DNA of 38,690 nucleotides, from positions 1 through 38,690 of the forward strand of contig JAGWYB010000011.1 in assembly GCA_018969585.1 (NCBI GenBank), read 5' to 3'. Positions within the stretch are counted from its first letter, which is position 1. Each line of letters starts with the position of its first letter. The translations under genes and the position numbers were made by a program. Of this stretch, positions 3,413 through 38,690 are shown piece by piece. Below the pieces are notes generated by a model. That model saw nothing but the letters and a program-made list of their open reading frames with translations. It did no database searches and had not been told where the DNA came from. Source of the stretch: Actinomycetales bacterium (lineage in GTDB: Bacteria > Actinomycetota > Actinomycetes > Nanopelagicales > Nanopelagicaceae).

Positions 3413-3415
3413 CGA

Positions 3416-3421: not shown

Positions 3422-3428
3422 TGAAACA

Positions 3429-20195: not shown

Positions 20196-20201
20196 ACGAT
20201 A

Positions 20202-20207: not shown

Positions 20208-20222
20208 GAGGGCAGATGCGCC

Positions 20223-20793: not shown

Positions 20794-20812
20794 TCTCAAG
20801 TAGCCATTGAGA
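20794..20812 (-). terminator. hairpin just after bfn, possible weak terminator
   Basis: TCTCAA and TTGAGA form a 6-bp stem around a 7-base loop, one base past the bfn stop codon. It is followed by only three Ts, so termination would be partial at best. It separates the gcvH-garA-ftsR-bfn run from merR. Confidence 0.33.
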
Positions 20813-20813
20813 G

Positions 20814-21988: not shown

Positions 21989-22419
21989 GATCTACTCCCC
22001 TTAAAGAAATGCATTCGATACTTTCCGATTTGTATCTCATCGCCGTCTGTTAACGCAGAATCTAAAACTAGTGAGCCATTTAAATATGTGCCATTTAAAC
22101 TTCCTGAGTCTTTCAGTAGATAACCGCCATTTGCGCGGCTGATGAGTGCGTGATTGCGCGAGACAGTGATGTCATCAAGAAAAATTTCGCTCTCCGGGAA
22201 GCGGCCAATAGTGGTGCTCTCTTTATCGATTAGGTAGCGGGAGCCTCGATTAGGGCCAATTAGCGAAATCAACATCGCTGAGTTTGCATCAAGTTCTTTT
22301 AGCACGGATAAAACTTCGGGGCCAGCTTGTTGCAAAAGGGAGTGAACCGGTTCTGCAACCGATCGCAGCGAAGTGAGATGAATTGTGCTCGTTAAATCAG
22401 GGTTGGGAGCTGTATTCAT
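21985..22419 (-). CDS. garA: FHA-domain protein GarA
   Basis: GarA-type FHA proteins switch 2-oxoglutarate and glutamate metabolism according to phosphorylation by Ser/Thr kinases. The C-terminal FHA domain is clear: TTIGRFPESEIFLDD, TVSRNHALIS and LNGTYLNG. The N-terminal tail has threonines and serines (DLTSTIHLTS) where GarA carries its phosphorylated TT pair, though the exact ETT motif is not present. I chose the ATG at 22419 because AGGAG sits four bases upstream; a TTG at 22482, overlapping gcvH, would add 21 residues. It gives 144 residues, close to the usual size. It links the glycine cleavage operon to kinase signalling. Confidence 0.9.
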   Translation of the reverse strand: MNTAPNPDLTSTIHLTSLRSVAEPVHSLLQQAGPEVLSVLKELDANSAMLISLIGPNRGSRYLIDKESTTIGRFPESEIFLDDITVSRNHALISRANGGYLLKDSGSLNGTYLNGSLVLDSALTDGDEIQIGKYRMHFFKGSRS

Positions 22420-22478
22420 GTCGCTCCTATCCGTGTTGATGACCTTAGGGCTCACCTTAGAGTGGAGGTTGAAGTGAG

Positions 22479-22853
22479 TCAAGCAGTAAGGGCTTGGTAC
22501 TCATCGCTGGAAAGTAGTTCTCCGGCTGCCGAAACTTCAACTTCGGCAATCCAGCCTGAACCATAAGGATCAGAATTTATTGTTTCAGGAGCGCTATCGA
22601 GTGATGAGTTAACACCAACTATTTTGCCGGAAACCGGCGCAAAGATCTCTGAGACGCTTTTAGTTGATTCAACTTCGCCGCAAACTTTTCCAGCTTCTAT
22701 GACATCTCCGACTTTCGGAAGTTGTACATAAACAATATCTCCAAGAGCTCCCTGAGCATAATCGGTAATTCCAAACCGAATCAATTTCTCTCCGCGCTCT
22801 TCAATCCATTCATGCTCTTTTGTGTATTTCAAGTTCCCAGGAGTGTTTGTCAT
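22479..22853 (-). CDS. gcvH: glycine cleavage system H protein
   Basis: GcvH (124 residues) is the lipoylated carrier that shuttles the aminomethyl group between the P and T proteins. The N-terminus carries KYTKEHEWIEE, and the lipoyl attachment lysine is K65 in VESTKS, followed by EIFAPVSGKIVGVN. GSGWIAEVEV near the end is also conserved. AAAGG precedes the ATG, which lies one base after the pgsA stop, so both genes share a transcript. gcvP is 2.3 kb downstream. Confidence 0.97.
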   Translation of the reverse strand: MTNTPGNLKYTKEHEWIEERGEKLIRFGITDYAQGALGDIVYVQLPKVGDVIEAGKVCGEVESTKSVSEIFAPVSGKIVGVNSSLDSAPETINSDPYGSGWIAEVEVSAAGELLSSDEYQALTA

Positions 22854-22854
22854 G

Positions 22855-23397
22855 TTAAGCCTTTCGTAATCTCCTTACGCCGGTCATTCCGTACTGAATC
22901 CCGGTAACTAGGTATAAACCTATCCCCCAACCGGCAAAAGCCCAACCCAAAATATAGGAAATTTCACTTAATGCGTCAGAAGTTTGAGTAAGGAGCAGAA
23001 GCGGTAGCGCATAAAGCAGGTTAAAGGTCGCAGCCTTCCCTAGATATGTCACTTCAAAAGGCGGCATTTTTGCCATTTTTAACATTAAGAGCAGGACACC
23101 TAGGGCTATATCTCTAGCCACAATTGACAGGAGCAACCAAACTGGCAAAAGTGACGATACAAACATCGCAATAAGAACACTCGCGATGTAAAGTCGATCG
23201 ACGGCGGGGTCGAATAACTCGCCGAATCTACTTTCTTGTTTTAGAGCTCGAGCCAATTTCCCATCTAGATAATCAGTAGCCCCGCCTATCATCAACGTTA
23301 CTACCGCCCAGCCGTAGCTTTCGTTGAAAATCAGGTAGAGAAAAATCGGGATACCTAACGCCCTTGCCAAGGTTAAAAGATTGGGAATGGTGACCAT
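22855..23397 (-). CDS. pgsA: CDP-alcohol phosphatidyltransferase, PgsA-like
   Basis: A 180-residue integral membrane enzyme with the complete CDP-alcohol phosphotransferase motif: D42, D45-G46, A49-R50, G59, D63 and D67 in DYLDGKLARALKQESRFGE and LFDPAVD. Four or more further hydrophobic helices follow. The family transfers a phosphatidyl group from CDP-diacylglycerol to an alcohol; phosphatidylglycerophosphate synthase is likely, but cardiolipin or phosphatidylinositol-phosphate synthases share the motif. The M. tuberculosis gene in this position is pgsA2 (Rv1822). A TAGGTT lies nine bases before the ATG, and tRNA-Pro is 32 bases upstream. Confidence 0.85.
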   Translation of the reverse strand: MVTIPNLLTLARALGIPIFLYLIFNESYGWAVVTLMIGGATDYLDGKLARALKQESRFGELFDPAVDRLYIASVLIAMFVSSLLPVWLLLSIVARDIALGVLLLMLKMAKMPPFEVTYLGKAATFNLLYALPLLLLTQTSDALSEISYILGWAFAGWGIGLYLVTGIQYGMTGVRRLRKA

Positions 23398-23429
23398 AGA
23401 TTGGCAAACCTATCTCAATAGATCCTGCG

Positions 23430-23503
23430 TCGGGACGACAGGATTTGAACCTGCGACCACATGACCCCCAGCCATGTGCGCTACCAAGCTGCGCTACGTC
23501 CCG
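23430..23503 (-). tRNA. tRNA-Pro (anticodon GGG)
   Basis: A 74-base cloverleaf folds on the minus strand: acceptor CGGGACG with CGTCCCG; D arm GCGC/GCGC; anticodon stem CATGG with TCATG (one G-U) and loop CTGGGGG, giving anticodon GGG for CCC/CCU; T arm GCAGG-TTCAAAT-CCTGT; discriminator A. CCA is not encoded. It lies in the 129 bases between cmk-der and pgsA and, with only 26 bases to the cmk-der stop codon, may be processed from that transcript. Confidence 0.97.
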
Positions 23504-23526
23504 TGTTGAAATAGTACCGCCGCGGA

Positions 23527-25497
23527 TTAATTCCTCAATCGAACCGAGATTCGGATTGGCGAACCTGAAAACCCAAATTCTTCGCGCAATCGTCGTTCGA
23601 TGAATCGCCTATACGAAGGTTCTATGAAATCAGACGCAAAGAGAATAAAGGTTGGGGGCGCAATTCCAGCCTGGGTTGCAAAGAGAATCTTTGGTTGCTT
23701 TCCACTTCTTATTGGCGGTGGATTCGCTCCTACTAGTTGACCGAGGAAAGCATTGAGCTTCGCAGTAGGTATTCGAGTCTCCCATCCTTGAAGGGACCGG
23801 ATCACTGCAGGAATGAGTCGATCTCTATGCCACCCAGTTTTTGCAGAAACATTGATCCGTTCGGCCCATTCAACTTGATCTAGATTTCGGTCGATCTCGC
23901 GTTCTAGTTGGACTCTTCTATCTTCATCCACCATATCCCATTTATTCATGCAAACCAGTAGGGCTTTTCCAGAATCTTCGGCAAGAGAAATAATTCTCAA
24001 ATCTTGTTCTGTCATTATTTGCGAAGCGTCAATCACAATAATTACGCATTCCGCATTATCGATTGCTCTCTCAGTCCTAAGAGTCGCGAAATAATCAATG
24101 CCATCTGCATGATGCGAACGCCTTCTGATTCCTGCTGTGTCGATAAAGCACCATGACTTTCCATCAATCTCAACTATTTCGTCAATTGGATCTCGCGTAG
24201 TTCCTTCCGCATCATCAACTAAAGCTCTCGTCTCGCCAGCAAAAGAATTTAGCAAGCTGCTCTTACCAACATTTGGTTTACCGACAATAGCTATTCGTCT
24301 TGCGTAATCTGACGCATGCGCTTGACCATACTCGGGAAGAAGCTCTACTAATTTGTCCAATAAATCGCCTGCTCCCCTACCATGGGCTGCCGAAACAAAA
24401 ATTGGTTCTCCTAACCCGAGATTCCAAAGTGAGTGTGCATCCATTTCATCTCGCTCGGAATCAACCTTATTTCCTATCAGAAGTACTTTTCGATTAGATT
24501 TTCGTAGAAGATCAACGAGTGCTAAATCATCGCTCTGAATTCCCACCTTCGCGTCAACCACCAGAAGGATTAAATCTGCATCATAAATAGAAGCGGCAGC
24601 AGAATCTGCGATTTTGATTTCAATACCTTCACCTGATGGCAGCCAACCGCCAGTATCAATCAGACAGAATCTCTTACCGTTCCACTCAGCTTCATAACGA
24701 ACTCGATCCCTAGTTACGCCTGGGGTATCTTCGATAATTGCTTCTCGCGATCCCAAAATTCTATTTACAAGGGTCGATTTCCCGACATTCGGTCTTCCTA
24801 AAATGACTGCAGTAGGTAGTCCAATTAGACCCCTCTGTTTGAGAATATTCCAAATATATTCAACGGTTTCTTCGAGAGAGAGCAGCGTTGAATCAACAAC
24901 AATGGCGTCTTCAGCCTGGCGTAATGGCGAGATAGCCCTAGTGCTATCGAGACTATCTCGTTGTTCAAGTTCTCGTGCCACCTCTTGATCTAGCTCCAAC
25001 AGATTTAGGTTTTCTAACTCCGATTTACGTCTCATCGATCTTGCCTGGAGATCTGCTGATAGATAAATCTTCATATCAGCTTCAGGTGCAACTACCGTTC
25101 CGATATCTCTACCCTCAACAACTATTCCGCGAGATGTTTTTTCGATAAAAGAGCGTTGCAACCGAAATAAAAACTTTCGCACTTCTGGTAGTGCGCTTAT
25201 CTTGCTTACTGAATCAGTAACACTTTTGGTACGAATATCTTGACTTACATCTTTGCCATTGATTCGAGTTATTGGATTCTTAGGGTCGGCAGAAAAATCA
25301 ATTTTCGATTGTTCAAGAATTTTTGATATTTCATTCGATGGCGAATTTGAATGGCTACCTAATGCAATTGTTGCAGCGCGGTACAAAGCTCCGGTATCTA
25401 AATAGTCAAAACCACCCATGATCGCAAGCGAACGTGATGTAGATGATTTTCCAGAACCGCTTGGTCCATCAATTGCAATTACTAGTGGTTTTCTCAT
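23527..25497 (-). CDS. cmk-der: bifunctional cytidylate kinase / ribosome-assembly GTPase Der
   Basis: One 656-residue frame fuses two enzymes. Residues 1 to about 222 are cytidylate kinase (CMP/dCMP phosphorylation) with P-loop GPSGSGKS (11-18), LDTGALYRA and VVEGRDIGTVV. Residues from about 228 on are Der (EngA), a 50S assembly GTPase with two G domains: G1 GRPNVGKST (234-242), DTGGW and NKVD; then GKPNVGKSS (406-414), DTAG and NKWD; and a KH-like C-terminus. No stop or frameshift lies at the joint. Mycobacteria keep two adjacent genes; the fused form is known from some other actinobacteria. The ATG overlaps the tyrA stop. Confidence 0.95.
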   Translation of the reverse strand: MRKPLVIAIDGPSGSGKSSTSRSLAIMGGFDYLDTGALYRAATIALGSHSNSPSNEISKILEQSKIDFSADPKNPITRINGKDVSQDIRTKSVTDSVSKISALPEVRKFLFRLQRSFIEKTSRGIVVEGRDIGTVVAPEADMKIYLSADLQARSMRRKSELENLNLLELDQEVARELEQRDSLDSTRAISPLRQAEDAIVVDSTLLSLEETVEYIWNILKQRGLIGLPTAVILGRPNVGKSTLVNRILGSREAIIEDTPGVTRDRVRYEAEWNGKRFCLIDTGGWLPSGEGIEIKIADSAAASIYDADLILLVVDAKVGIQSDDLALVDLLRKSNRKVLLIGNKVDSERDEMDAHSLWNLGLGEPIFVSAAHGRGAGDLLDKLVELLPEYGQAHASDYARRIAIVGKPNVGKSSLLNSFAGETRALVDDAEGTTRDPIDEIVEIDGKSWCFIDTAGIRRRSHHADGIDYFATLRTERAIDNAECVIIVIDASQIMTEQDLRIISLAEDSGKALLVCMNKWDMVDEDRRVQLEREIDRNLDQVEWAERINVSAKTGWHRDRLIPAVIRSLQGWETRIPTAKLNAFLGQLVGANPPPIRSGKQPKILFATQAGIAPPTFILFASDFIEPSYRRFIERRLREEFGFSGSPIRISVRLRN

Positions 25498-26549
25498 TGC
25501 TTATGCGCTTTCCAGCCCCGTGCCAGAAGATGCTTAAATAGCAATTCCGCGTCGTTACTGGAGAGTGCTAGGCGAATCAGACCGGTCTCTTGTTGAGGCG
25601 AATGTTCTAAAGATAAATCTTCAATATTTACTTTGATACTTCCGCACTCGTCAAAGAGCGATGCTAATTGTCCCGGTTTATCGTCAATAACCACGTCGAC
25701 AAATGTATATTCTCGCCGCTTCATTCCATGTTTACCACCAATTTTTTCCGGAACGAAATTTGCGTCATCGAACATGTCTTTTATTCGAACTCCATCCTCA
25801 TCCTCGATGGAATCGCGAAGGACATCTAGAAGCTCTTGGAAATCATCAATACTGGCAAGCACATCATCCTTGTTATCAAGAATAATTTCGCTCCAGAGCA
25901 ATCCGTCTGAAGAAGCTAAACGCAACATGTCGCGTAGTCCTTGTCCGGCTAGAGAAATCTCCGGACCAAGTTCAGAGATGCTGCTTGCTAGAGCCACGCT
26001 AATCAATTGCGGCAGATGAGAAATCTTGGCAAACAAAGCGTCATGTAGTTTTGTAGACATTTGATAAGGAGTGGCGCCCATAGCGGAGATAAATTCCGTC
26101 ACTGTTTCTAATCGCCAAGAATCAACATTTTCAGACGGTGTTAATACCCAAGCCCTCCCCATGAACAGATCGCTACGCGCCGCTTGCGGTCCATTCTTCT
26201 CACGGCCAGCGATCGGATGAGTGCCAACAAACCTCTTATCTAAATCCGATATTTCACTAACCTTCGCTTGAACTTTAGTTTTTATACTGCTTACATCTAT
26301 AACTGTTGCTGCAGGATGAGATTCGGCGATCTTAGGAATAAGCGTTATCGCCGCGTTAGGTGTCGTTGCGATCACGATGAGATCCGGCTCTGCTATTTCT
26401 CGATTTGAAGGAATGAGATCTTTCGCTATCTGTAGCGGTCCATCCGCCGAGTCAATTAATGAGATTGGCCAAGCCAACTCCGCGGCACGTAATCCGATTG
26501 ACGTTCCTATCAGACCGGTTCCGTAAATTTTTACAGATAACGGTTTCAT
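25494..26549 (-). CDS. tyrA: prephenate dehydrogenase with C-terminal ACT domain
   Basis: TyrA oxidatively decarboxylates prephenate to 4-hydroxyphenylpyruvate for tyrosine. This 351-residue protein has an N-terminal Rossmann motif YGTGLIGTSIG (9-19), the conserved FVGTHPIAGREKNG segment, the helical dimerisation domain, and a C-terminal ACT domain (about 283-351, VIDDKPGQLASLFDECGSI) expected to sense an aromatic amino acid. Its ATG overlaps the aroH stop as ATGA, so chorismate mutase and the dehydrogenase are translated as a coupled pair for two consecutive steps. Confidence 0.94.
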   Translation of the reverse strand: MKPLSVKIYGTGLIGTSIGLRAAELAWPISLIDSADGPLQIAKDLIPSNREIAEPDLIVIATTPNAAITLIPKIAESHPAATVIDVSSIKTKVQAKVSEISDLDKRFVGTHPIAGREKNGPQAARSDLFMGRAWVLTPSENVDSWRLETVTEFISAMGATPYQMSTKLHDALFAKISHLPQLISVALASSISELGPEISLAGQGLRDMLRLASSDGLLWSEIILDNKDDVLASIDDFQELLDVLRDSIEDEDGVRIKDMFDDANFVPEKIGGKHGMKRREYTFVDVVIDDKPGQLASLFDECGSIKVNIEDLSLEHSPQQETGLIRLALSSNDAELLFKHLLARGWKAHKQ

Positions 26550-26908
26550 TGAGCTAAATCGTTACGGAGTTTGTTGGTACCGCGGAGGTAGACATGAACC
26601 ATCTGCTTCTGGCTTCTAGTCGTTCGGCAATGGATTAACGTCCTGATAACTCGCTGCATACCTCCGGGTACTGCAATCTCAACAGCGCAGAGAAGTGGAA
26701 CATCTCCTAGCCCCATCGCTCTCGCTGATGCCGCCGGGAAGTCCGAGACGAGATCCTGAGTAGCTGTAAAAATGACGGAGATTAGATCTTGACTCTGTAG
26801 CGCATTCGCTCGGAGGATTTCAGCCATCAACTCGACGACGGCTTCCCTCATCATCTCTGGGTTGTCTTCCGCAATCTGGGTGGCGCCTCGAATCGCCTGA
26901 ATTTCCAT
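26546..26908 (-). CDS. aroH: chorismate mutase, AroH type
   Basis: AroH rearranges chorismate to prephenate. This is the trimeric Bacillus AroH fold, not the helical AroQ type: 120 residues with AIRGATQIAEDNPEMM carrying the active-site R7-equivalent, DLISVIFTATQDL, FPAASARAMGLGDVPL with a second arginine, and CRTTRSQKQMVHVYLRGT at the end. Product flows to TyrA, encoded directly downstream. The ATG has a leaderless -10 box and no Shine-Dalgarno, so the aroH-tyrA-cmk-der transcript probably begins here, after the AT-rich gap. Confidence 0.93.
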   Translation of the reverse strand: MEIQAIRGATQIAEDNPEMMREAVVELMAEILRANALQSQDLISVIFTATQDLVSDFPAASARAMGLGDVPLLCAVEIAVPGGMQRVIRTLIHCRTTRSQKQMVHVYLRGTNKLRNDLAQ

Positions 26909-26914
26909 GTATCA

Positions 26915-26920
26915 AGTTTA
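26915..26920 (-). promoter_or_regulatory. -10 box for leaderless aroH transcription
   Basis: On the minus strand TAAACT, six bases (TGATAC), then the ATG of aroH. The hexamer is the same as at metH. The box upstream lacks a recognisable -35. Confidence 0.52.
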
Positions 26921-27192
26921 CGCAGGAGGAACGATTTCTCGGGGAAGCCACTTAAACATTTGATTATTTATAGATAAAAAGTTTTATATACATGCAATTC
27001 TCCATCGATTTTGAATGTCGACTTTTTCATAGATCGGGTTTATCCCAGCAAATGTCGACAAAACGCTTTTTCATCTGATTTTTGCGCACAAAATTATCGA
27101 TAAACCGGTATTTCAGTAACCACATGATTATCAATTTATGGATTTATTGTTATTGCTTTAATATGTATAAACATATTTATAGATATATCAAT
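26921..27192. other. AT-rich gene-free gap between rluB and aroH
   Basis: This is the longest spacer in the window. From about 26955 on it is strikingly AT-rich compared with its neighbours. It holds short inverted repeats, notably AATATGT-ATAA-ACATATT at 27160-27177 and several copies of TTTAT(A/C)GAT-like words, plus a direct repeat described separately. Only tiny open frames occur (32 and 20 codons on the minus strand, both lysine-rich, with no recognisable start signals). No tRNA, strong terminator or riboswitch fold is apparent. It could be a decayed gene, a structural or protein-binding element, or an extended control region for aroH. Confidence 0.6.
27014..27073. repeat. imperfect direct repeat in the AT-rich gap
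   Basis: The 17-base AATGTCGACTTTTTCAT at 27014-27030 recurs at 27051-27073 as AATGTCGAC followed by seven extra bases and then TTTTTCAT. Each copy contains the palindrome GTCGAC. The origin is unknown. Confidence 0.55.
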
Positions 27193-27882
27193 TTATAGTT
27201 TTAACGTTTCGACGTCAGATAGATATCTCCACTTACCGGCTTTTAACTCGCCTAGCTTGATTGAACCTATCTCGGTTCTTATAAGCGCTAAAACCTCAAT
27301 ACCTAGCGCTTCCATCATTTTCCGAATAATCTGATTGCGCCCTTCATGAATCGCGATCTCGACACCTTCCGGTATCCGCTTGGCTGAAATAGCTCGCGCT
27401 ACTCCATTCTCTATCTTTACACCCGCTTTGAGTTGGTCAATTTCACGCGCGCTCAAGGCTCGGTCTGTAGCAACTCGATACTTCTTAACAAGACCAAATT
27501 TGGGGTGAGCTATCTTTTGCGCCCAATCACCGTCGTTGGTTAAGAGAATCAAGCCCTCGCTCTCTTTATCCAGCCTGCCAACGTGAAAAAGTCGCTCACT
27601 CCAGTCGGAAAAAAATGACGAAAGTGAGCTTCGACCGGAGGGGTCTGACATGGTAGACAGAACGCCTCTAGGTTTATAAAACGCTATATAAGTCTTGGTG
27701 TTTTTTGGTTTGATTGCCTTACCATCAAGTGCAACTCGAGCGTTTTCCGGATTAATTTTGGTTCCAAGCTTCGTTACAATTTTTCCGTTTACTGAAACTC
27801 TTCCGCTTACAATCAATTCTTCGCAAGCTCTTCGGCTGGCAACGCCGGCATCAGCTAAGTATTTCTGGAGGCGGATTTCCAC
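27193..27882 (-). CDS. rluB: 23S rRNA pseudouridine synthase RluB-like
   Basis: A 229-residue pseudouridine synthase of the RsuA/RluB family, which modifies 23S rRNA near the peptidyl-transferase region. An N-terminal S4 RNA-binding domain (RLQKYLADAGVASRRACEEL) precedes the catalytic domain with D105 in GRLDKESEGLILLTNDGDW; EGRNQIIRKMMEALG is also typical. The GTG start lies 18 bases after the scpB stop. The scpA-scpB-rluB-cmk-der order is widespread in actinobacteria, but here the AT-rich gap and aroH-tyrA sit between rluB and cmk-der. Confidence 0.92.
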   Translation of the reverse strand: MEIRLQKYLADAGVASRRACEELIVSGRVSVNGKIVTKLGTKINPENARVALDGKAIKPKNTKTYIAFYKPRGVLSTMSDPSGRSSLSSFFSDWSERLFHVGRLDKESEGLILLTNDGDWAQKIAHPKFGLVKKYRVATDRALSAREIDQLKAGVKIENGVARAISAKRIPEGVEIAIHEGRNQIIRKMMEALGIEVLALIRTEIGSIKLGELKAGKWRYLSDVETLKL

Positions 27883-27900
27883 TCCCCCACAGTAGTTGGA

Positions 27901-28467
27901 TTATTCGGTCAGCGAAGCGATGATCTCATCCAGGCCCTCGATATCGGGCAAGAATGGGGCAAGTGCGGGAAGATCAGAGACAGAATTTAAACCAATCCGC
28001 TCGAGAAAATAGTTTGTAGTTCGGTAAAGGAGTGCACCGGTTTCATGCTCAACGCCGCATTCTTCAACCAATCCGCGATTGACTAGGGTCTTCATAACCG
28101 CCTCGACATTCACGCCTCGAATAGCTGAGACCCTGGCTCTAGAAATCGGCTGGCGGTATGCAATTACAGCTAGAGTTTCAAGCGCTGCTTGGGTCAACTT
28201 CGCCTGTTGGCCATCAAGAACGAATTTTTCAACGAGCGGAGCTAAATCTGGATGGCTGTAGAAACGCCAACCCCCAGAAACCTGCTTGAGCGTAAATCCT
28301 CTGTCCTGGTTCTCATATTCTTCAGATAATTGGCTTAGCGCTGCTGTGATCTCTTCGGTGGGTCTCTCAATAATCTGGGCCAAGACAACCTCCGATAGAG
28401 GTTCTTCAACCACCATGAGAATCGCTTCGATTGAGCGTTCCAACTCACGATTATTCATCGCCACCAT
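27901..28467 (-). CDS. scpB: segregation and condensation protein ScpB
   Basis: ScpB (188 residues) is the winged-helix kite subunit that, with ScpA, bridges SMC heads for chromosome compaction and segregation. It shows the typical ELERSIEAILMVVEEPLS start and the conserved LTQAALETLAVIAYRQPISRARV and GVNVEAVMKTLVNRGLVEECG segments. The ATG at 28467 overlaps scpA by 17 bases; an ATG three codons further on (28458) is equally possible. An acidic C-terminal tail follows. Confidence 0.94.
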   Translation of the reverse strand: MVAMNNRELERSIEAILMVVEEPLSEVVLAQIIERPTEEITAALSQLSEEYENQDRGFTLKQVSGGWRFYSHPDLAPLVEKFVLDGQQAKLTQAALETLAVIAYRQPISRARVSAIRGVNVEAVMKTLVNRGLVEECGVEHETGALLYRTTNYFLERIGLNSVSDLPALAPFLPDIEGLDEIIASLTE

Positions 28468-29368
28468 TTTCCGTTCTTACCGCGCTGTCGTCTCCAAGGC
28501 TATCTGCTTCGGGGTTTGGCAAACGATCAAACTCATCACTTACCGATACTGCCCCAGAATCCGATCCAGTCCACGTGATCTGCAATTCCCCAAGCGCTAG
28601 GACTTGCTCAAATCGCACCTGACCGTCTTTGTATAGCTCCAGAAGAGCCAAAAATCGGGCAACGACAATCAAGGTGTTTTCGGCGTCGGAAACTAAAGCT
28701 CGAAAAGTAAGGCTCTTCTGTCGACGGAGAGCGGAAACCACTAAATGCGCCTCTGCGGCAACGCTAACCATCGCCTGGTGTAAATGTTCGGTTGAGAGTT
28801 TAGGGGCAACTTTAGGGGTAAGCACCCGGTTAGCTACTGCGGCAAATCGTTCCGGAGTAACTCCAATAAGAACTTCCGGCAACAGCGCAGCGAGATGAGG
28901 CTCTAGCGATACCGATCTGGCAAAAGTTTTCTCCTGAATCTCGATTCGATCTGAGATTATCCGCGCAATCTCCTTAAATGCTCGATATTGAAGCAATCTG
29001 GCAAATAACAGATCCCGAGCTTCGAGAAGCGCGAGGTCGGCTTCATCATCCACCTCACCACTCGGAAGAAGACGCGCTGCCTTGAGATCGAGCAACGTGG
29101 CCGCAACTACTAAGAATTCCGTCGCTTGGTCGAGCCGCCAACCTTCTTCGGTGGCTTCCAGAGCGCGAATATGGGAAATGAATTCATCAGTTACGGTTGC
29201 CAGCGCAACTTCAGTAATTTCCAATTTATGGCGCGAAATAAGCTGTAGCAGTAGATCGAAAGGTCCATCGAAATTCTCTAGTTTTACGGAAAAACCGGAG
29301 ACGCGGCCTTCGAGTGCAGATTGTGGCAACACTGAACCACTACTTGAGACTTCTGCGCTATCGGACAT
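28451..29368 (-). CDS. scpA: segregation and condensation protein ScpA
   Basis: ScpA (305 residues) is the kleisin of the SMC complex. The N-terminal VKLENFDGPFDLLLQLI is the hallmark SMC-neck binding region, then EITEVALATVTDEFISHIR and the conserved EFLVVAATLLDLKAARLLP. The C-terminal winged helix includes RALVSDAENTLIVVARFLAL. About 45 extra acidic residues lie at the C-terminus. The ATG has a TAGAGT nine bases upstream. It is divergent from parA over 62 bases and overlaps scpB, placing two segregation systems side by side. Confidence 0.94.
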   Translation of the reverse strand: MSDSAEVSSSGSVLPQSALEGRVSGFSVKLENFDGPFDLLLQLISRHKLEITEVALATVTDEFISHIRALEATEEGWRLDQATEFLVVAATLLDLKAARLLPSGEVDDEADLALLEARDLLFARLLQYRAFKEIARIISDRIEIQEKTFARSVSLEPHLAALLPEVLIGVTPERFAAVANRVLTPKVAPKLSTEHLHQAMVSVAAEAHLVVSALRRQKSLTFRALVSDAENTLIVVARFLALLELYKDGQVRFEQVLALGELQITWTGSDSGAVSVSDEFDRLPNPEADSLGDDSAVRTENGGDE

Positions 29369-29418
29369 GATTAGCGAACTCTACGCGTGTCGTTGCTAAG
29401 TTTCCCAATTCCCGTGCG

Positions 29419-29424
29419 TAAAGT
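29419..29424 (+). promoter_or_regulatory. -10 box for leaderless parA transcription
   Basis: TAAAGT, six bases (CGCCGC), then the ATG of parA. It lies in the 62-base spacer shared with the divergent scpA gene. Confidence 0.5.
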
Positions 29425-29430
29425 CGCCGC

Positions 29431-30360
29431 ATGGCAAATAGTGCTTCAGAGATTTCTCGATTGACTGCTAAATCGACATTTACAAAAAGTAAACCAAGTC
29501 GAAACGAAGAAGTTGTCACCACATCTTCTGTGCTGAATCTTCCAACTCCAATTTTCGCGGAACCAAAACCGCTAGAAATTCATGGCGATGCTCGCATCAT
29601 CTCCGTTGTTAATCAAAAGGGTGGTGTTGGAAAAACAACAACCACAATCAACCTTGGAGCGGCGCTGGCCGAATTAGGCAGAAGGGTGCTCTTAGTTGAC
29701 TTTGATCCTCAACATTCCCTCTCAGTCGGCCTAAATGTTTCCACTCGCGAGATCGAAGGTTCGATATACGACTTGATGATGGACGAATCAACGAAGATTG
29801 ATGACTTCTTACTTAAGACCAGCGTTCCTGGAATGGACATGATCCCCGCTCATGAAAACTTGGCTGGCGCTGAAGGCGGTCTGGTTAATGTCATTGCCCG
29901 CGAAAAGGTGCTAAAACGAGTACTGGCCTCAGTCGTTGATTTTTACGATGTAATCCTTATTGATTGCCAACCCTCTCTTGGACTTTTGACTGTTAATGCC
30001 CTGACAGCGTCTCATTACGTCCTCGTGCCACTGGAATGCGAGTACTTTGCGCTGCGTGGTGTCGCACTTCTAGATGACATCATCAAGAAAGTTCAATTGA
30101 ATACCAATCCTGATCTTCAACTACTCGGAATTTTGCCGACCATGTTTGACAGAAAGACGGTGCATAGCCGAGAGGTCTTAGAGAGAATTAATGAAGCTTT
30201 TCCTAAAAAGGTTTGTGACACCACAATAGCTCGAACTGTTCGCTTCCCCGAAACTACTGTTGCTGGAGAGCCAATAACTTCTTACGCGAGCTCTTCCGCT
30301 GGCGCGGCTTCTTATCGAAGACTCGCCCGTGAACTAATTGCAAATGGAGGTATTCGATGA
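29431..30360 (+). CDS. ParA family ATPase
   Basis: A 309-residue P-loop ATPase of the ParA/MinD class (Rv1708-like). About 50 N-terminal disordered residues precede the deviant Walker A KGGVGKTT (63-70), the switch region VDFDPQHSLS and Walker B VILIDCQPSLG. Such proteins position cargo or DNA using a partner that stimulates ATP hydrolysis. It is the second ParA type in actinobacteria, separate from the origin-linked parAB operon. Its stop overlaps the start of the next gene (ATGA). This pair is the only + strand transcription unit right of the putative dif site. Confidence 0.9.
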   Translation: MANSASEISRLTAKSTFTKSKPSRNEEVVTTSSVLNLPTPIFAEPKPLEIHGDARIISVVNQKGGVGKTTTTINLGAALAELGRRVLLVDFDPQHSLSVGLNVSTREIEGSIYDLMMDESTKIDDFLLKTSVPGMDMIPAHENLAGAEGGLVNVIAREKVLKRVLASVVDFYDVILIDCQPSLGLLTVNALTASHYVLVPLECEYFALRGVALLDDIIKKVQLNTNPDLQLLGILPTMFDRKTVHSREVLERINEAFPKKVCDTTIARTVRFPETTVAGEPITSYASSSAGAASYRRLARELIANGGIR

Positions 30361-30773
30361 GTCGCAGAATCAGTCTTCCTGGTGCGGATGAGTTATTCCG
30401 TAAGACCACACTTAGCGCGGTACCAGACACCGTTGAAGAAACAGCGGAGGTTGTTCACACCAACCGTCCAACAACGGCGGTAGCTGCAAAACCTGCACCA
30501 AAAGGCAATGCGGTTCGTCAGACGCCAAGACGGAGATCGACCGGCATAGATCGCGCCCCATCTGGTCGAGAAAGACATGATGAAAAAATTACTGTTTATC
30601 TATCTCCCGATGAGTTATTTGATTTGGAACAAGCTCGCTTACATCTCAGAGGAGATATCGGCTTAGCGGTTGATCGAGGTCGCATTGTGCGAGAAGCGCT
30701 CGCAATTGTTATCGCGGATTTAGAATCGAAAGGCGACCAATCAATTATTGCCCGCCGATTAAAGGGACGGTAA
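30357..30773 (+). CDS. conserved hypothetical protein, possible ribbon-helix-helix partner of ParA
   Basis: A 138-residue protein conserved next to this ParA in actinobacteria (from memory). The first 70 residues are probably disordered and rich in T, P, A and R (TPRRRST). The C-terminus, EKITVYLSPDELFDLEQARL (76-95) followed by RGRIVREALAIVIADLES, reads as a beta strand and two helices, the pattern of ribbon-helix-helix DNA-binding proteins. By analogy with small ParA partners of plasmids it could bind DNA and stimulate ParA. This is inference; no binding site is evident. It converges on xerD with a three-base gap. Confidence 0.75.
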   Translation: MSRRISLPGADELFRKTTLSAVPDTVEETAEVVHTNRPTTAVAAKPAPKGNAVRQTPRRRSTGIDRAPSGRERHDEKITVYLSPDELFDLEQARLHLRGDIGLAVDRGRIVREALAIVIADLESKGDQSIIARRLKGR

Positions 30774-30776
30774 AAC

Positions 30777-31676
30777 CTACTTCGCCCTCGGGTGCGCTGA
30801 TATGTAGCTCTCCCTAATTTTTTCGATCGTAATCATCGTGTAAATCTGGGTCGTTGTAACTGATGAATGCCCTAGTAATTCTTGAACAATGCGAATGTCT
30901 GCTCCTCCATCCAAAAGATGAGTGGCGAATGAATGACGTAATGAATGTGGCGATATGGAGTTAATGCCCGCTCGTTGCGCTGTTTCGCAGACGATCTTCC
31001 AAGCGCTCTGACGACTTAGTCTTCCGCCACGGGAGTTTAAAAAGAGTGCATCAGTTCGATTCCGACTCTTCTCACTCAATGACGGGCGGATTGTTACTAA
31101 GTACTGCTCGAGTTCATGTCGAGCGAGTTTTCCAATTGGTACAACTCTCTCTTTACGGCCTTTACCGTAAAGTTTGACGGTTTGGATGTCTTCGCCATCA
31201 GATTTCAAATCAGTCAGATTTAATGCAATCACTTCACTCACCCGAGCTCCGGTGGCGTAGAGAAGTTCTAAAAGCGCTCTATCTCTTAACCCATGTCCAG
31301 AGTTTGGTGCCGATTCAATTAATTTCGTTACATCTGTTATCGAGAGCGCCTTAGGAAGCCTTCGGGGCAACTTTGCGGGTTTCAAATCGCGAGCCGGATT
31401 CTCAACTCCTGTCTCCTTGGCGTAAAACTTGAAAAAGCTTCGTAGAGTGACAGCTAATCTTGCAGTTGAGGATGGTGACAACTCTCGGCGCCGGCTTTCG
31501 GAGATAAATTTCTCTAAATGCTCGAGTCTCACATTTTCCAAGTTGATAACTTCTCTAGTGAGGAATTGAGAGAAGTTCGACAAGTCTCGGCGATAGGCGG
31601 AAGTCGTATTTAGGCTTAAACCTCGTTCAACTGAGATATGACTAAGGAATTCTTCGAAAAAGCGAACGTTAGCCAC
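30777..31676 (-). CDS. xerD: tyrosine recombinase XerD
   Basis: XerD acts with XerC at dif to resolve chromosome dimers at the septum. This 299-residue protein has an N-terminal SAM-like DNA-binding domain and the full catalytic set: R145 (ATGARVSEV), K172 or nearby ([10 protein letters not shown]), H244 and R247 ([12 protein letters not shown]), H270 ([10 protein letters not shown]) and nucleophile Y279. The GTG start overlaps the pyrG stop by eight bases. The pyrG-xerD link and length point to the housekeeping XerD rather than a phage integrase. A putative dif lies 13.4 kb to the left. Confidence 0.94.
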
Positions 31677-33300
31677 GATTAATTGCTGCGCGAATTAGAC
31701 CAGCAAAAAGAGGGTGCGGATTTGTTGGTCTGGAGCGAAATTCCGGATGTGCTTGAGTTCCTACATAATATGGATGAATAGATCTAGGAAGTTCAATGAA
31801 TTCAACTAACTTTCCATCGGGTGAGAGTCCACTAAAAATTAAACCGGCCTTGCTAATTGATTCTCTATATTTATTATTTACCTCGTAGCGATGCCTATGG
31901 CGTTCCGAAATTTCATCTGAGCCATATGTTTCCGCAACCAAAGATCCTGACTGCAAAAGGGCTTTGTATAGACCCAAACGCATTGTCCCACCCATGTCGG
32001 CTTCACCAGAAACTATTTTTTCTTGACCTTCCATGGTTGCAATTACTGGATTAACTGAGGTTGGATCAAACTCGGCAGAGTTAGCGTCTTTGATTCCTGC
32101 TAATGACCTAGCAACCTCAATCACCATGCATTGTAAGCCGAGACATAATCCAAGGGTTGGTATTTTATTTTCGCGCGCAAACTTCAGCGCTCCAACTTTG
32201 CCCTCGATTCCACGAACTCCAAATCCACCGGGGACGCAAATAGCGTCTACATCTCCAAGTTGTTCTCTAGCAGCATCCAACTTTTCACACTCATCGCTGA
32301 CTACCCATTTAATTTCAACTTTGGCATCGTTGGCAAATCCGCCAGCTCGAAGCGCTTCCGTCACTGAAAGGTATGCATCAGGTAGATCAACATATTTACC
32401 TACAAGGGCGACTCTTACAGTGTGCTTCGGTTTGTGTACTCGCTCAAGCAGGCGATCCCACTCACCCCATTCGACATCGTGAAAAGGCAGTCCTAAGCGA
32501 CGAACTATGTAAGCATCTAAACCTTCTCTATGAAGAACCTTTGGGATGTCGTAGATCGAAGGCGCGTCGACAGCGGCGACGACTGCCTCTTGATCGACGT
32601 CGCACATGAGTGAAATTTTCTTCTTTACTGCGACTGGGATTTCGCGATCGGATCTAAGAACTACTGCATCAGGCGAAATACCGATGGAACGAAGCGCTTG
32701 CACCGAATGCTGAGTTGGTTTTGTTTTCAGTTCGCCGGAAGGTCCAATGTATGGGACAAGGGAAACATGGAGATAGAAAACATTCTCTCGTCCTACCTCT
32801 TGTCGGATCTGTCTAGCAGCTTCAAGGAACGGCAGGGATTCGATATCACCGACAGTGCCTCCGATCTCGGTTATGACTAGATCAATATCCGGCGCTGCCA
32901 TTGCTCGGATCCGATCTTTAATTTCGTTAGTGATGTGGGGAATTACTTGCACGGTGTCGCCCAAGTACTCGCCCTTTCGTTCTCGGGCGATAACTCTTGA
33001 ATAGACCTGACCAGTAGTCACATTTGCAGAGCCATGAAGGTTTGTGTCAAGAAACCGCTCGTAATGACCTATGTCGAGATCCGTCTCCGCTCCATCATCC
33101 GTGACAAATACCTCACCATGTTGGAAAGGATTCATGGTTCCGGGATCAACATTTATATATGGATCCAACTTCTGCATAGTAACTCGTAAGCCTCGAGCTC
33201 TTAATAGTCGACCTAGGCTGGAAGCGGTAAGACCTTTACCAAGACTTGAGGCGACTCCGCCGGTGACAAAAAGATGCTTCGTCACATGAGGGGCGGTCAT
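31669..33300 (-). CDS. pyrG: CTP synthase
   Basis: PyrG aminates UTP to CTP using glutamine and ATP. The 543-residue protein has the synthase domain with [16 protein letters not shown] at the N-terminus and the glutaminase domain with nucleophile C386 (LGLCLGLQC) and GTQAHPEF near the end, carrying catalytic H and E. The ATG lies 23 bases after recN and has TAAGTT eight bases upstream. XerD overlaps it downstream. The order recN-pyrG-xerD follows mycobacteria, with the intervening small genes removed. Confidence 0.97.
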
Positions 33301-33323: not shown

Positions 33324-35066
33324 TTAAGCTTTACCTAAATCTAACAACTCTCGTGCGTGCTCTTGGGCGTGTTCTGAGTCAGATATTCCAGAGAGCATCC
33401 TGGCTATTTCAGATTCTCTCGCTAGTCCAGTTGCTATCGAGATAGAACTCTCACTTATTGAACCAGAAGAATCTTTATTCACTATCAAGTGGCGATCAGC
33501 CCAGATTGCCACTTGCGGCAAATGTGTGACGACAATAACTTGCGAATCTAGCGCTAGTTTCTTTAATCGTTTGCCAACTTCAAGCGCCGCTTTTCCTCCG
33601 ATTCCGGAATCAACTTCATCAAATAAATACGTTCCAAGCGGAGAGTTCCCGGCTGCTACGACTTCAATGGCGAGCATCAACCTAGAGAGCTCTCCCCCGC
33701 TCGCGGCCTTAGAGATCGGCAAAAGTTCACCATTTTGATGGGCGGAGAACTTCATAGAGATTTCATTAATCCCGGTGGCATCAAAATCTTCGTCTTTGGG
33801 ATTATCTTGCGCAGAAACTTCGCAGGCGAAACGAGCGTTTGGCATAGCCAATTCAGCTATTTCTTTATTGACTGCGGTGGTTAGTCGTACGGCTGCTTCA
33901 ACTCTCACATCACTTAAGAATTTCGCTGCTTTAAGAAGCTCTTTACGAGCGTCATTTAATTCGGATTTCAAAGCTGCAACTCTTTCTTCGCCACCACTTA
34001 GATCTGCAATCTCATTTTTTGCTGCTTTTGCGCGTTCTAACGCACGTGGTAGTTGCTCAGCTAAATCTCCGTCACCGCCATATTTTTTAGCAAAATTTCG
34101 GAGTGCGGCCTTTCTAGTCAGTAGGTCATCTAGCGGCGCTAAATCTTCTCCAAAGCTTTCTAGAAGCGTTGCGCTCTCATTGGCTAGATCGCTCAAATCA
34201 AAGAAGGCGCTATCTGCACGCTTTGACTGCTCCAGAAATCTTTCATCTTTAGCCGACAGTGCGTTGAGAGCTTTTCGAGCGCGATCAATCAGTACCAGGG
34301 CCCCTATTTCCTCAGCTGAAAGTGTCGAAACCACTTCGCCTAGATTAATTCTTAATTCCTCAACATTTTCCGAGAGAGCAATTTTTCGTTCTAAATCCTC
34401 AAACTCACCTATTTTGGGTTGAAGTTTTGCAGCATCTTTCAGAAGTTGTTCCAGTTCTTGAATCTTTGAAAATCTGGAGCTCTCGGATTTATTAAGGTCA
34501 AAAAGTCGCCGCCTAATTTCGCGAAAATTCTCGTAAGCAACCTGGTATTTTGAAATGGCATCCAGGGCGCGATCTCCAGAAAAATTGTCTAACAGGTCCC
34601 TTTGGCGCGAACCCTTTGTTAAAGCTAACGCGCCATGCTGACCATGTATCTCGATTAACTCACTGGCAAACGAAGCTAAGGTTGATGAGGTTGTGGGAGC
34701 ACCGGAAAGGCTCGCCTTAGATTTACCCTCTCTAGTTATTGTTCTTGTTAGGATTATTGAATCGTCTTCAATTTCTGGATCGTGCTCAGATAAGAGATTT
34801 TCCAAATTTGTCTTGGGCCGTTCAGGTAAGGCAAAAGTTCCGGCAACGCTAAGTCGTTCGCAACCTAATCGAATTAAATCGCTATCTGTTTTTCCGCCGG
34901 CAATTAGTGATAACGCGGTGACCACCATCGTCTTTCCGGCGCCAGTTTCGCCGGTTAAAACATTTAGGCCCGGAGCAAATTCAATCGCCGCCTCTTCAAT
35001 CACCCCCAAGTTACGTATTGTGAGTTCATTGAGACGTGATCGTCCTGATTTCTTGCTATTTGCCAC
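33324..35066 (-). CDS. recN: DNA repair protein RecN
   Basis: RecN is an SMC-like ATPase acting at double-strand breaks. The protein (580 residues from the chosen start) has the N-terminal half-site LNELTIRNLGVIEEAAIEF with Walker A GETGAGKT, long coiled coils in the middle, the ABC signature ASGGELSRLMLAIEV, and Walker B with YLFDEVDSGIGG. The start is uncertain: GTG at 35066 overlaps the nadK stop by 11 bases, while a TTG at 35078 adds four residues. The tlyA-nadK-recN order is standard for actinobacteria. Confidence 0.95.
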   Translation of the reverse strand: MANSKKSGRSRLNELTIRNLGVIEEAAIEFAPGLNVLTGETGAGKTMVVTALSLIAGGKTDSDLIRLGCERLSVAGTFALPERPKTNLENLLSEHDPEIEDDSIILTRTITREGKSKASLSGAPTTSSTLASFASELIEIHGQHGALALTKGSRQRDLLDNFSGDRALDAISKYQVAYENFREIRRRLFDLNKSESSRFSKIQELEQLLKDAAKLQPKIGEFEDLERKIALSENVEELRINLGEVVSTLSAEEIGALVLIDRARKALNALSAKDERFLEQSKRADSAFFDLSDLANESATLLESFGEDLAPLDDLLTRKAALRNFAKKYGGDGDLAEQLPRALERAKAAKNEIADLSGGEERVAALKSELNDARKELLKAAKFLSDVRVEAAVRLTTAVNKEIAELAMPNARFACEVSAQDNPKDEDFDATGINEISMKFSAHQNGELLPISKAASGGELSRLMLAIEVVAAGNSPLGTYLFDEVDSGIGGKAALEVGKRLKKLALDSQVIVVTHLPQVAIWADRHLIVNKDSSGSISESSISIATGLARESEIARMLSGISDSEHAQEHARELLDLGKA

Positions 35067-35916
35067 GCCAACCGTCAACAGGTAATTTGAATTTCGCGAC
35101 TAATCGATCAGTGAAAGTCACATTATCAATATGAGCCAATGAGATAAAACTTCTCTCAGAAGTTAGTACGACTCGATCTCCCTCGAGCAGCTGGACCTTT
35201 CGAAGTCCATCCGCAGAAATTACGCCGACTTCACTCTCCACGTCTATTGCGATAACTGATTGTGGAGATACAACCATAGGATCCGAGAAGAGAGCGTGCG
35301 CAGCTAACGGTAGTAGTACGAGCGCATCTACATCTGGCCACACAACGGGACCGCCCGCTGAAAATGCGTAAGCCGTTGAACCGGTTGGTGTTGCGCAGAT
35401 GACGCCATCACAGCCCCAGCGCGATAGCGGCCTCTGATCGATCTGGACAAAGAGTTCAATCATGGATTCAGTATTTCGCTCGATTGCAACTTCATTGAGC
35501 GCCCAACCTTCGGAAACAACCTTCTCTTTTCGTTCAACACGATAAGAGAGCGTCATTCGCTTCTCAACTTGATAAGACTTGCTCTCAATAGCCTTGATCA
35601 ATTCTGAATTTGAAGGTCTTTCAATTTGAGCAAGGAATCCCACATGACCGAGGTTTATTCCCAGCACTGGAGTTTGCGATCCGTGAGCCAGTTCGGCACC
35701 TCGAAGAATTGTGCCATCACCGCCGAGAACAAGTATTAGTTCAGCGTTCTTCGCCACAGACAAAATCTCAATCTCACTAAGTTTTTCTGTCTCGTTAATC
35801 CCCTCAGAGGTCGTTGCAACTTCAAATCCGATTTTTCTCAAGTTAGGAACTAATTCGTTGGCTAATTGATGGGCTTCTTTACGCGACGGGTGTAGTACGA
35901 GAACTATCTTTCTCAT
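35056..35916 (-). CDS. nadK: NAD kinase
   Basis: NadK phosphorylates NAD to NADP. At 286 residues it has the diagnostic GGDGT (65-69), followed by NLGHVGFLAQ, an NE motif in WALNEVAIER, and the NAD-binding loop GSTAYAFSAGGPVVWP. The ATG overlaps the tlyA stop as TAATG, and recN overlaps its end, so the three genes form one translationally coupled unit. Confidence 0.97.
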   Translation of the reverse strand: MRKIVLVLHPSRKEAHQLANELVPNLRKIGFEVATTSEGINETEKLSEIEILSVAKNAELILVLGGDGTILRGAELAHGSQTPVLGINLGHVGFLAQIERPSNSELIKAIESKSYQVEKRMTLSYRVERKEKVVSEGWALNEVAIERNTESMIELFVQIDQRPLSRWGCDGVICATPTGSTAYAFSAGGPVVWPDVDALVLLPLAAHALFSDPMVVSPQSVIAIDVESEVGVISADGLRKVQLLEGDRVVLTSERSFISLAHIDNVTFTDRLVAKFKLPVDGWRGK

Positions 35917-36704
35917 TACGCCGGCCCCTTTGCTATCGCTTCACTTAAATCAGAATCCGCAAGTGCGGGCGATCCCCTCCGTAACCAGAGGAAATATTCC
36001 ACATTTCCTGAAGGTCCGGGTAGGGCGCTAGCAACTACTGATGCAACACCTAAGCCGAGCGAATATGCCGAATCGGCCACCATTCGTACCGCTTCGAAGC
36101 GCAGGTTTGGTTCACGAACTACTCCGCCAGCGCCTAATTTTTCTCTACCAACTTCAAATTGAGGCTTGACCATCAATAGGAAATCACACTCCTTTGTTGC
36201 GAGGCCAATGAGGGCGGGCAACACTGTTCTTAGGGATATGAAGGAGAGATCGGCAACGATTAGATCTGCTGGATCTCCAATATCAACTAGCTTCGCATCT
36301 CTGACGTTAAGCCGATCTTTTACTGTCACTCTTGAATCCTGTTGCAAACTCCAAGCTAGCTGACCGTATCCAACGTCCATTGCGATAACTTCCTTAGCGC
36401 CATTTAAGAGTAATACCTCTGTAAATCCCCCGGTTGAGGCGCCCGCATCAAGAGCTCTGCGCCCTTCTACTTTAATACCGGGAATGGCTTTAAGAGCGCC
36501 CGCGAGTTTATGGCCTCCTCTTGAAACGAAATCCTTTTCGTCAGATTCAACTACTATTGAAATCTCCGCATCAACTTGAGTTGATGATTTTTTTGCGGGA
36601 AGACCGCCTACTCTAACTTTCCCGCTCTCAATTAAATCTTGCGCATTCTCTCGAGATCGAGCCAGTCCACGGCGAACTAATTCGCTATCGAGTCGCTGTC
36701 GCAT
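35916..36704 (-). CDS. tlyA: TlyA family rRNA 2'-O-methyltransferase
   Basis: TlyA methylates ribose 2'-OH groups in 16S and 23S rRNA (C1409 and C1920 in mycobacteria) and affects capreomycin sensitivity there. The 262-residue protein has an N-terminal S4 domain (RLDSELVRRGLARSRENAQD) and an FtsJ-like domain with SRGGHKLAGAL, SAM motif I ALDAGASTGGFTE (84-96) and the motif LIVADLSFISLRTV. It begins four bases after the stop of a small 47-codon gene and overlaps nadK. Confidence 0.95.
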   Translation of the reverse strand: MRQRLDSELVRRGLARSRENAQDLIESGKVRVGGLPAKKSSTQVDAEISIVVESDEKDFVSRGGHKLAGALKAIPGIKVEGRRALDAGASTGGFTEVLLLNGAKEVIAMDVGYGQLAWSLQQDSRVTVKDRLNVRDAKLVDIGDPADLIVADLSFISLRTVLPALIGLATKECDFLLMVKPQFEVGREKLGAGGVVREPNLRFEAVRMVADSAYSLGLGVASVVASALPGPSGNVEYFLWLRRGSPALADSDLSEAIAKGPA

Positions 36705-37185: not shown

Positions 37186-37503
37186 CTAAACCCTTCTAAG
37201 TTCGCGCGCTTCGACCTGCCACCGACTGGCTAACTTTGCTCCCGAGCGCCAGAACCTGCGCCGAATTACTCCGGATACAGAAATCCACTCTTGATCTTTC
37301 AATGCAAGAGTTCTTCTTTTCAATTGCGCGCTCCAAGAGGCTACATCGAGCGTATCTACCCCGCTCCGATTATCTCGATCTACAACTAGGCGAATTTCAA
37401 CAACCTCATCGCCGCTGGGTAACCGTTTTACTTTCGGTTCGCCACTTACTCTTCCTACTAAACTGACTTTATTCTTCGGTCTTGGCTTCTTCGGTCTTGG
37501 CAT
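37186..37503 (-). CDS. short SSB-like OB-fold protein
   Basis: A 105-residue protein resembling the OB fold of single-stranded DNA-binding proteins: KVSLVGRVSGEPKVKRLPSG, VVEIRLVVDRD and WISVSGVIRRRFWRSG match the strand order. The N-terminus MPRPKKPRPKNK is strongly basic. There is no acidic C-terminal tail of the DF-F type used by replication SSB, so it is not the main SSB. GAAGGAG lies eight bases before the ATG. A role in repair or recombination would fit the neighbouring genes but is inference. Confidence 0.75.
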   Translation of the reverse strand: MPRPKKPRPKNKVSLVGRVSGEPKVKRLPSGDEVVEIRLVVDRDNRSGVDTLDVASWSAQLKRRTLALKDQEWISVSGVIRRRFWRSGAKLASRWQVEARELRRV

Positions 37504-37541: not shown

Positions 37542-38408
37542 CTAGCGCTGACCGACATCTCCTTCAGAACTTTCTGCCAACTGTGGATACTTTTGGAGAA
37601 ATTTTTCAACGTTAGTCTCGTCTCCTACAGCTTTAAGAGCCTCTAAATATGCATTTCTCAATCTCCGACTCCAAGCTGGTGAATCTTCATTCAATTCTGA
37701 ACAAGTAAGTGTTACAACGGCAGCCGCAGACTGACCGAGGGTTAGCCTTGCCTTCGCTGCAGCAATTCTCATCTCCACGCGCCCTTCTTTAGAGAGAGCG
37801 CTCTCCTTTATGGAACCCGCAATTTCCAAGGCTTTACGTGCATTTCCGAGAGCGGCCTCGCACTGTGCAATATATGGCTTTAATTCAATCGAACCGGTAA
37901 TTCGCTCAGCTGCACGAAGATCCTTCAGCGCTTCTTTATATTCGCCGGCTCTCAAAGCTGCTATTCCTGCTTTTTCTCGAACCACACCAAGGCGCCCCGC
38001 TCTATAAACAATTTCTTTTCCATGCTGATGTGCTTCTTTTGGATTAGTCTCAAGACTATTGATTAATGAAACCATGTGACGGGCAACGCTTTTTGCGTTT
38101 CCAGGGGTTAATGACTCAAGTTGAAAAATGATTTTCTTATCTAACTCTTCACCGGTTACTTCATCATTTACCCATGGTCGATCAAAGTTTCTCGTTCGCT
38201 CATGAGGGCCAGTGATCTTGGGGGGCCGCTCCTTAATCGGGCGGCTTTTTATCGGTCCAGTTCTTCTCTTCTCTTCTTTTCTCGTATTATCTTTTCTCGT
38301 ATTATCTTTTCTCGTATTGTCTTTTCTCTTATCGTCTTTTCTAAAGTTCTTCTTATCGCGTGAATTTTTTGCGCCAGATTTTTTCTCAGAAAATGAAAAA
38401 GGGGCCAC
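37542..38408 (-). CDS. TPR-like repeat protein with charged N-terminus (Rv1691-like)
   Basis: A 288-residue protein. Residues 1-75 are extremely charged and contain RKDNT repeats; from about 85 to 270 helical pairs resemble tetratricopeptide repeats (AGIAALRAGEYKEALKDLRA, YIAQCEAALGNARKALEIAG). Gene order points to Rv1691, a TPR protein of unknown role. The GTG start at 38408 lies inside the right arm of the rRNA terminator hairpin, and its AAAGGGG Shine-Dalgarno forms part of the left arm. No other in-frame ATG or GTG is close by, so the arrangement appears genuine. Confidence 0.75.
   Translation of the reverse strand: MAPFSFSEKKSGAKNSRDKKNFRKDDKRKDNTRKDNTRKDNTRKEEKRRTGPIKSRPIKERPPKITGPHERTRNFDRPWVNDEVTGEELDKKIIFQLESLTPGNAKSVARHMVSLINSLETNPKEAHQHGKEIVYRAGRLGVVREKAGIAALRAGEYKEALKDLRAAERITGSIELKPYIAQCEAALGNARKALEIAGSIKESALSKEGRVEMRIAAAKARLTLGQSAAAVVTLTCSELNEDSPAWSRRLRNAYLEALKAVGDETNVEKFLQKYPQLAESSEGDVGQR
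38276..38335 (-). repeat. 15-bp tandem repeat, four units, within the TPR gene
   Basis: Units CTTTTCTCGTATTAT (plus-strand sequence) at 38276-38290, 38291-38305 and 38306-38320 (one mismatch), and a diverged fourth unit at 38321-38335. The period is five codons, giving RKDNT three times, so changes in copy number keep the frame. Confidence 0.85.
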
Positions 38409-38433: not shown

Positions 38434-38552
38434 AGTCCGGCGGCGTTCTACTCTCCCACACAGTGACCCGTGCAGTACCATCGACGCTGAGAGGCTTAAC
38501 TTCCGGGTTCGGAATGGGACCGGGTGTTTCCCTCTCGCTATGACCGCCGAAA
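38434..38552 (-). rRNA. rrf: 5S ribosomal RNA
   Basis: About 119 bases on the minus strand beginning TTTCGGCGGTCATAGC and containing the conserved CCCATTCCGAACCCGGAAG and the loop GGTACTGCACGGGT. The ends TCGGCGG and CCGCCGG pair as helix I. The exact mature ends may differ by one or two bases. It follows 23S by about 100 bases. Confidence 0.95.
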
Positions 38553-38556
38553 CGCT

Positions 38557-38627
38557 ATTGAGATGTCAATCAAAACTAGATTGAAAATTTCTTCTCAATC
38601 TTTAGTTCCCGACCGTATCTCGGGAAC
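38557..38627 (-). other. 23S-5S spacer with three hairpins
   Basis: Inverted repeats ATTGA/TCAAT (38557-38570), AGATTGA/TCAATCT (38578-38601) and an 8-bp GTTCCCGA/TCGGGAAC (38605-38627) follow one another. They are likely processing structures in the precursor rRNA. No tRNA is present. Confidence 0.55.
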
Positions 38628-38655
38628 CACACAGTGGACGCGTAGCAACTTTGTA

Positions 38656-38690
38656 GTTAAATCCTCGGCCTATTAGTACCGGTCAGCTCC
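38656..38690 (-). rRNA. rrl: 23S ribosomal RNA, 3' end only
   Basis: The last 35 or so bases on the minus strand, GGAGCTGACCGGTACTAATA followed by GGCCGAGG, are the universal 3' end of 23S rRNA. The rest lies beyond the window, which is cut inside the gene. Confidence 0.92.

Follow-up and report, generated by a model that had tools for sequence, protein, structure and literature searches.

The window, the whole stretch of DNA analysed here (38,690 bp), is the entire contig C14 of a MAG (67 contigs totalling 1.10 Mb, with 81% completeness and 3% contamination). It belongs to a Nanopelagicaceae (acI) bacterium and holds the replication terminus together with the terminus-side end of the sole rrn operon. 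Named loci with similar TlyA proteins come from freshwater Actinobacteria, several of them labelled Nanopelagicaceae, Nanopelagicales, or Ca. Planktophila, and the top named match, VGAE01000023, is 97% identical to the window tlyA. The features that run from the terminus to the operon are listed below, with the relatives (G024, G026, and G103) in which each arrangement recurs.

15942–17330, plus strand: lnt, the final gene on the opposite replication arm, which adjoins dif in G024, G026, and G103 too
17320–17347, plus strand: dif site of 28 bp (TAAACCGATAA-TTGACA-TTATGTAAACT), overlapping the lnt stop codon, as called from its sequence, the family motif, and GC skew
17346–30773, strand unassigned: the remaining conserved dif-to-rrn block, with protein-gene order equal in G024, G026, and G103; a tRNA was also detected
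30777–31676, minus strand: xerD-like tyrosine recombinase gene between dif and rrn, syntenic
31669–33300, minus strand: pyrG, syntenic, 81 to 82% identity
33324–35078, minus strand: recN, syntenic
35056–35916, minus strand: nadK, syntenic in G024 and G103
35916–36704, minus strand: tlyA, marker of the conserved rrn site, found 3' of the 5S gene in many named loci
37186–37503, minus strand: ORF for a short SSB/OB-like protein (named from sequence reading), syntenic in G103
37542–38408, minus strand: ORF for a TPR-like protein (named from sequence reading) directly 3' of the 5S gene, with an equally placed homologue in G103 and G026
38435–38551, minus strand: complete 5S rRNA gene (Rfam RF00001), the last gene of the sole rrn operon found
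38653–38690, minus strand: 23S rRNA gene, 3' end only, interrupted by the contig end

G024 and G103 share this gene order all the way from lnt to rrn, and G026 shares it across the dif-side part. The block at 17346–30773 comprises gcvP, merR, a nuclease gene, a second merR, fha, gcvH, pgsA, the tRNA gene, cmk-der, tyrA, aroH, rluB, scpB, scpA, parA, and a small gene after parA. The cmk-der ORF (23527–25497, minus strand; 656 aa) is an apparent fusion of cmk and the GTPase gene der, both named from sequence reading, and it aligned nearly full length in G024, G026, and G103. In the TPR-like gene beside the 5S gene, nearly identical short repeats (38276–38345, minus strand) encode KDNTRKDNTRKDNTR close to the N terminus.

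The 5S gene was identified with a score of 110.5 bits against a gathering score of 38 (E value of 1.2e-23). The last ∼37 bases of the 23S gene lie in the window, of which positions 38653 to 38688 aligned to the 3' end of the G024 23S gene (blastn, 97% over 36 bases). The contig breaks inside the 23S gene, so that the 16S gene falls outside the window, and a search of the 81%-complete MAG yielded neither a 16S gene nor a second 5S gene. A complete 16S-23S-5S operon was present at the equivalent locus in five relatives, with one 16S gene truncated at the end of the extracted stretch. The first-pass annotation had placed the end of an rrn operon about 21 kb from a dif candidate and co-directional with replication, and both statements held: the 5S gene is 21.1 kb from dif and, because it lies rightward of dif and on the minus strand, is transcribed toward dif in the same direction as the fork.

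The full dif candidate sequence, TAAACCGATAATTGACATTATGTAAACT, has one mismatch to the motif. The motif is weak alone, as matches at ≤3 mismatches arose in 43 of 100 shuffled versions of the window. A family-adapted dif pattern matched all 46 family genomes scanned, mostly with a single match each, while a reversed control pattern gave few matches. GC skew on the plus strand was mostly positive to ∼17 kb and mostly negative beyond, and cumulative skew reached its maximum at 18142, less than 1 kb from dif; in G024, G103, and G026, this maximum lay 0 to 2.4 kb from dif. In single-contig genomes, dif was opposite dnaA, at 0.94 to 1.00 of half the chromosome (most lengths were rounded to 0.1 Mb). 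The call is convincing because the family-wide motif matches and the skew peak coincide at this site. Judged by sequence, the site at 17320–17347 is thus a dif of the XerC/XerD type, essentially single-copy and at the GC-skew switch, where the earlier annotation had put it. In being a 28-bp site at the skew switch and opposite dnaA, it resembles known dif/XerC/XerD termination systems, with nothing unusual here. The site is wedged between the convergent lnt and gcvP genes with zero free space: dif contains the lnt stop codon (17328–17330), and its final bases are shared with the 3' end of gcvP (17346).

Copy number and placement were then compared across the order, using 67 genomes (G000 and genomes at least 95% complete). 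Exactly one 5S gene was found in each of the 49 members with any 5S gene, including 17 single-contig genomes, and a second rrn operon near the origin was absent from all 17. In every one of these 17, the operon lay 19.6 to 25.5 kb from dif, at 0.965 to 0.970 of the arm from dnaA to dif, and its side and strand relative to dif were constant, with transcription toward dif. In 23 further assemblies (window included), the 5S gene and dif were on one contig, 20.2 to 67.3 kb apart, which gave a median of 21.9 kb over all 40 assemblies with both on one contig; the two were on separate contigs in 6 of the 46 genomes, which are uninformative on distance. Spacing in G026 and G094 was wider than in other relatives, as it was in the sister-family genome G037 (45 to 69 kb in these three), where a single tlyA-linked rrn operon is 69 kb from a dif-like site. 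Placement of the sole rrn operon beside dif is therefore family-wide in Nanopelagicaceae. The earlier suppositions that this might be the only copy and that related genomes might share its placement were both borne out, the first by one 5S gene in the 81%-complete MAG and securely by one in each of the 17 single-contig relatives. The dif call in G037 is a weak one (operon and dif-like site at G037:C7:381709 and 450792), as the site has two mismatches and GC skew lacks a clear switch.

Next, the genes that flank the operon were examined. In the window, tlyA is 3' of rrn on the same strand, a feature of the actinobacterial tyrS-rrn-tlyA locus (the mycobacterial rrnB site). The genes 5' of 16S in G024 are tyrS, argH, argR, argB, argC, pheT, pheS, an rRNA methyltransferase gene, and rplT (named from their sequences). 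In the window, this region is beyond the contig end; tyrS is 5' of 16S in G024, G032, G067, G103, and IMCC26103, and the complete IMCC26103 chromosome (CP015604) reads argH-tyrS-16S-23S-5S-tlyA-recN. Because mycobacterial rrnB has been described downstream of tyrS (PMC10218544), linkage to tlyA (rrn within 18 kb, same strand) was tested in 39 single-contig outgroup genomes that represent 14 further families of the class. A tlyA-linked, co-oriented rrn operon was present in 35 of the 39 genomes, covering 13 of the 14 families, and it was usually accompanied by further copies. These operons lay at 0.45 to 0.98 of the distance between dnaA and the far end, with a median of 0.78; lengths were rounded to 0.1 Mb and circularity was assumed, which is untrue for Streptomyces. 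At the sequence level, outgroup genomes from seven families (f3, f4, f17, f31, f32, f34, and f41) had the order tyrS-16S-23S 5' of tlyA. Judged from this synteny, the Nanopelagicaceae operon occupies an old actinobacterial rrn locus and was not relocated, and the other copies were apparently lost; any suggestion of a move away from the origin does not fit the linkage seen in 13 families.

The mycobacterial rrnB operon is alike in occupying the tyrS-tlyA site on the same strand and in being terminus-proximal: in f4, which is probably the mycobacterial family, it lay at 0.81 to 0.98 in eight of nine tlyA-linked genomes (the ninth, G341, at 0.62). The two groups differ in what else they keep. All mycobacteria retain rrnA, which lies downstream of murA and accompanies rrnB wherever the latter is present (PMC10218544), whereas Nanopelagicaceae retain the tyrS copy only. 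In three one-copy outgroup genomes (two of f4, G147 and G269, and one of f13), tyrS and tlyA had no rRNA between them, and the sole copy was at 0.50 to 0.62. One-copy lineages have thus kept different copies, since these f4 genomes retain the origin-nearer one and Nanopelagicaceae the terminus one.

To assess what the terminal position costs, rrn dosage relative to the origin was calculated as 2^-(C × position/doubling time), with chromosomes of 1.22 to 1.55 Mb, assumed fork speeds of 100 to 1000 bp/s, and the doubling times of 28 to 72 h reported for Nanopelagicales (PMC9878933). Calculated dosage was 0.95 to 0.998 of that of the origin, a difference of ∼5% or less, and it was 0.87 to 0.90 even at 10.7 h (a gRodon estimate) and 100 bp/s. 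With a small chromosome and slow growth, position is thus nearly neutral for dosage, and by this calculation an origin position would bring hardly any gain. The first-pass annotation had read the placement as a surrender of replication-linked rRNA dosage that fitted very slow or non-overlapping replication. The slow growth agrees with the published doubling times; non-overlapping replication is compatible with the position but is not demonstrated by it, because so small a dosage difference means that rrn position says little about replication mode. Generally, rRNA genes lie close to oriC, a pattern that is stronger in fast growers (PMC8659690; Vieira-Silva and Rocha, PMC2797632), and slow growers still tend toward this arrangement (PMC8659690). 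The rule is predicted to loosen where growth is slow and genomes are small, and to that extent the family conforms; it differs in that the average slow grower keeps its rRNA genes near oriC, whereas the entire family Nanopelagicaceae has its operon at the far end.

Very probably, then, the family retained the ancient tyrS-tlyA copy while the others were lost in genome reduction, at a terminus position that is nearly cost-free. The sole operon is the long-established actinobacterial copy at the tyrS-tlyA site, and the outgroups suggest ancestors with this copy and further ones, of which genome reduction would have removed all but the tyrS-tlyA copy. In all descendants, the conserved tyrS-to-dif gene block has kept rrn at ∼21 kb from dif. 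The tight rrn-dif distance follows from conservation of this block, and selection on rrn itself is not needed. The operon is transcribed in the direction of the fork and would function like any other rrn operon. Replication would be a small part of a doubling of 1 to 3 days, and because the terminus position would then lower dosage by no more than a few per cent, there may have been no pressure to retain an origin-side copy; with that pressure absent, the identity of the surviving copy would be largely historical. The loss of the other copies is drawn from outgroup comparison. Two points count against this explanation: neutrality alone leaves unexplained why the terminus-side copy survived, as slow growers favour oriC (PMC8659690), and the single-rrn f4 genomes G147 and G269 kept the other copy.

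Alternatively, the operon could have moved to the terminus and been held there by selection, low or late rRNA dosage suiting an oligotroph. Its near-constant position along the arm in 17 genomes and the usual location of rrn near oriC in slow growers elsewhere would agree with this. We consider it very unlikely: an rrn-tlyA site in 13 of 14 other families implies no move, conservation of the entire 21-kb block accounts for the constancy of rrn with no selection of its own, and the dosage effect at published doubling times is slight. Relocation to the terminus was rejected as a candidate, as the outgroups have rrn at the equivalent tyrS-tlyA site.

It is also conceivable, though even less probable, that strongly transcribed rrn pointing at dif forms a one-way barrier to forks overrunning dif and keeps termination near it. 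Transcription toward dif at a spacing of 20 to 25 kb in 17 of 17 complete genomes would suit such a barrier, and a fork past dif would meet rrn head-on. However, co-orientation of rrn operons with replication is near universal (PMC1285363), and this orientation is expected anyway; rrn is on one arm only, GC skew flips at dif and not at rrn, and the spacing is wider in G026, G094, and G037. A termination role for the lone operon ∼21 kb from dif, in which it stops overrunning forks and fixes their meeting point, is thus improbable to the same degree, but if true it would explain why the terminus-side copy was kept. An assembly artefact, with the rrn end joined to the wrong contig or extra copies collapsed, might be suspected in a fragmented, incomplete MAG with 3% contamination, no 16S gene, and a contig that ends inside rrn, but it has next to no probability and was rejected for the family, given equal placement with one 5S gene in 17 single-contig genomes and the gene order of the complete IMCC26103 chromosome.

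Returning to retention of the tyrS-tlyA copy, the rrn operon and its site are of known kinds, and we did not find family-wide fixation of a sole rrn operon beside dif described in the literature searched. These searches found no report of terminus-located rrn in Nanopelagicaceae, which does not prove absence. This fixation stands out because the average slow grower keeps its rRNA genes near oriC (PMC8659690). It provides a clean natural case of an abundant free-living family whose sole rRNA operon sits where the chromosome is replicated last, and it supports the view that keeping rRNA genes close to the origin is a trait of fast growth that decays with small genomes and slow growth. It also sets the order of events right, in that the tyrS-tlyA copy is old and it was apparently the other copies that went. 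In practice, 16S copies per chromosome should hardly vary with growth phase in Nanopelagicaceae.

The outgroups also bear on mycobacteria. The suggestion that mycobacterial rrnB is younger than rrnA (PMC10218544) sits badly with a tyrS-side rrn operon across 13 families, though gene conversion could mask the history. The apparent empty tyrS-tlyA sites at L134, L135, and L136 (in G147, G269, and G048), where rrn was lost or never there, bear on whether rrnB is truly the younger. At L132 (G124, f28; 1032–8747), the best rRNA matches beside tlyA read 23S and then 16S, an order that probably arises from two tandem operons at the tlyA site (two 5S genes, 8 kb apart).
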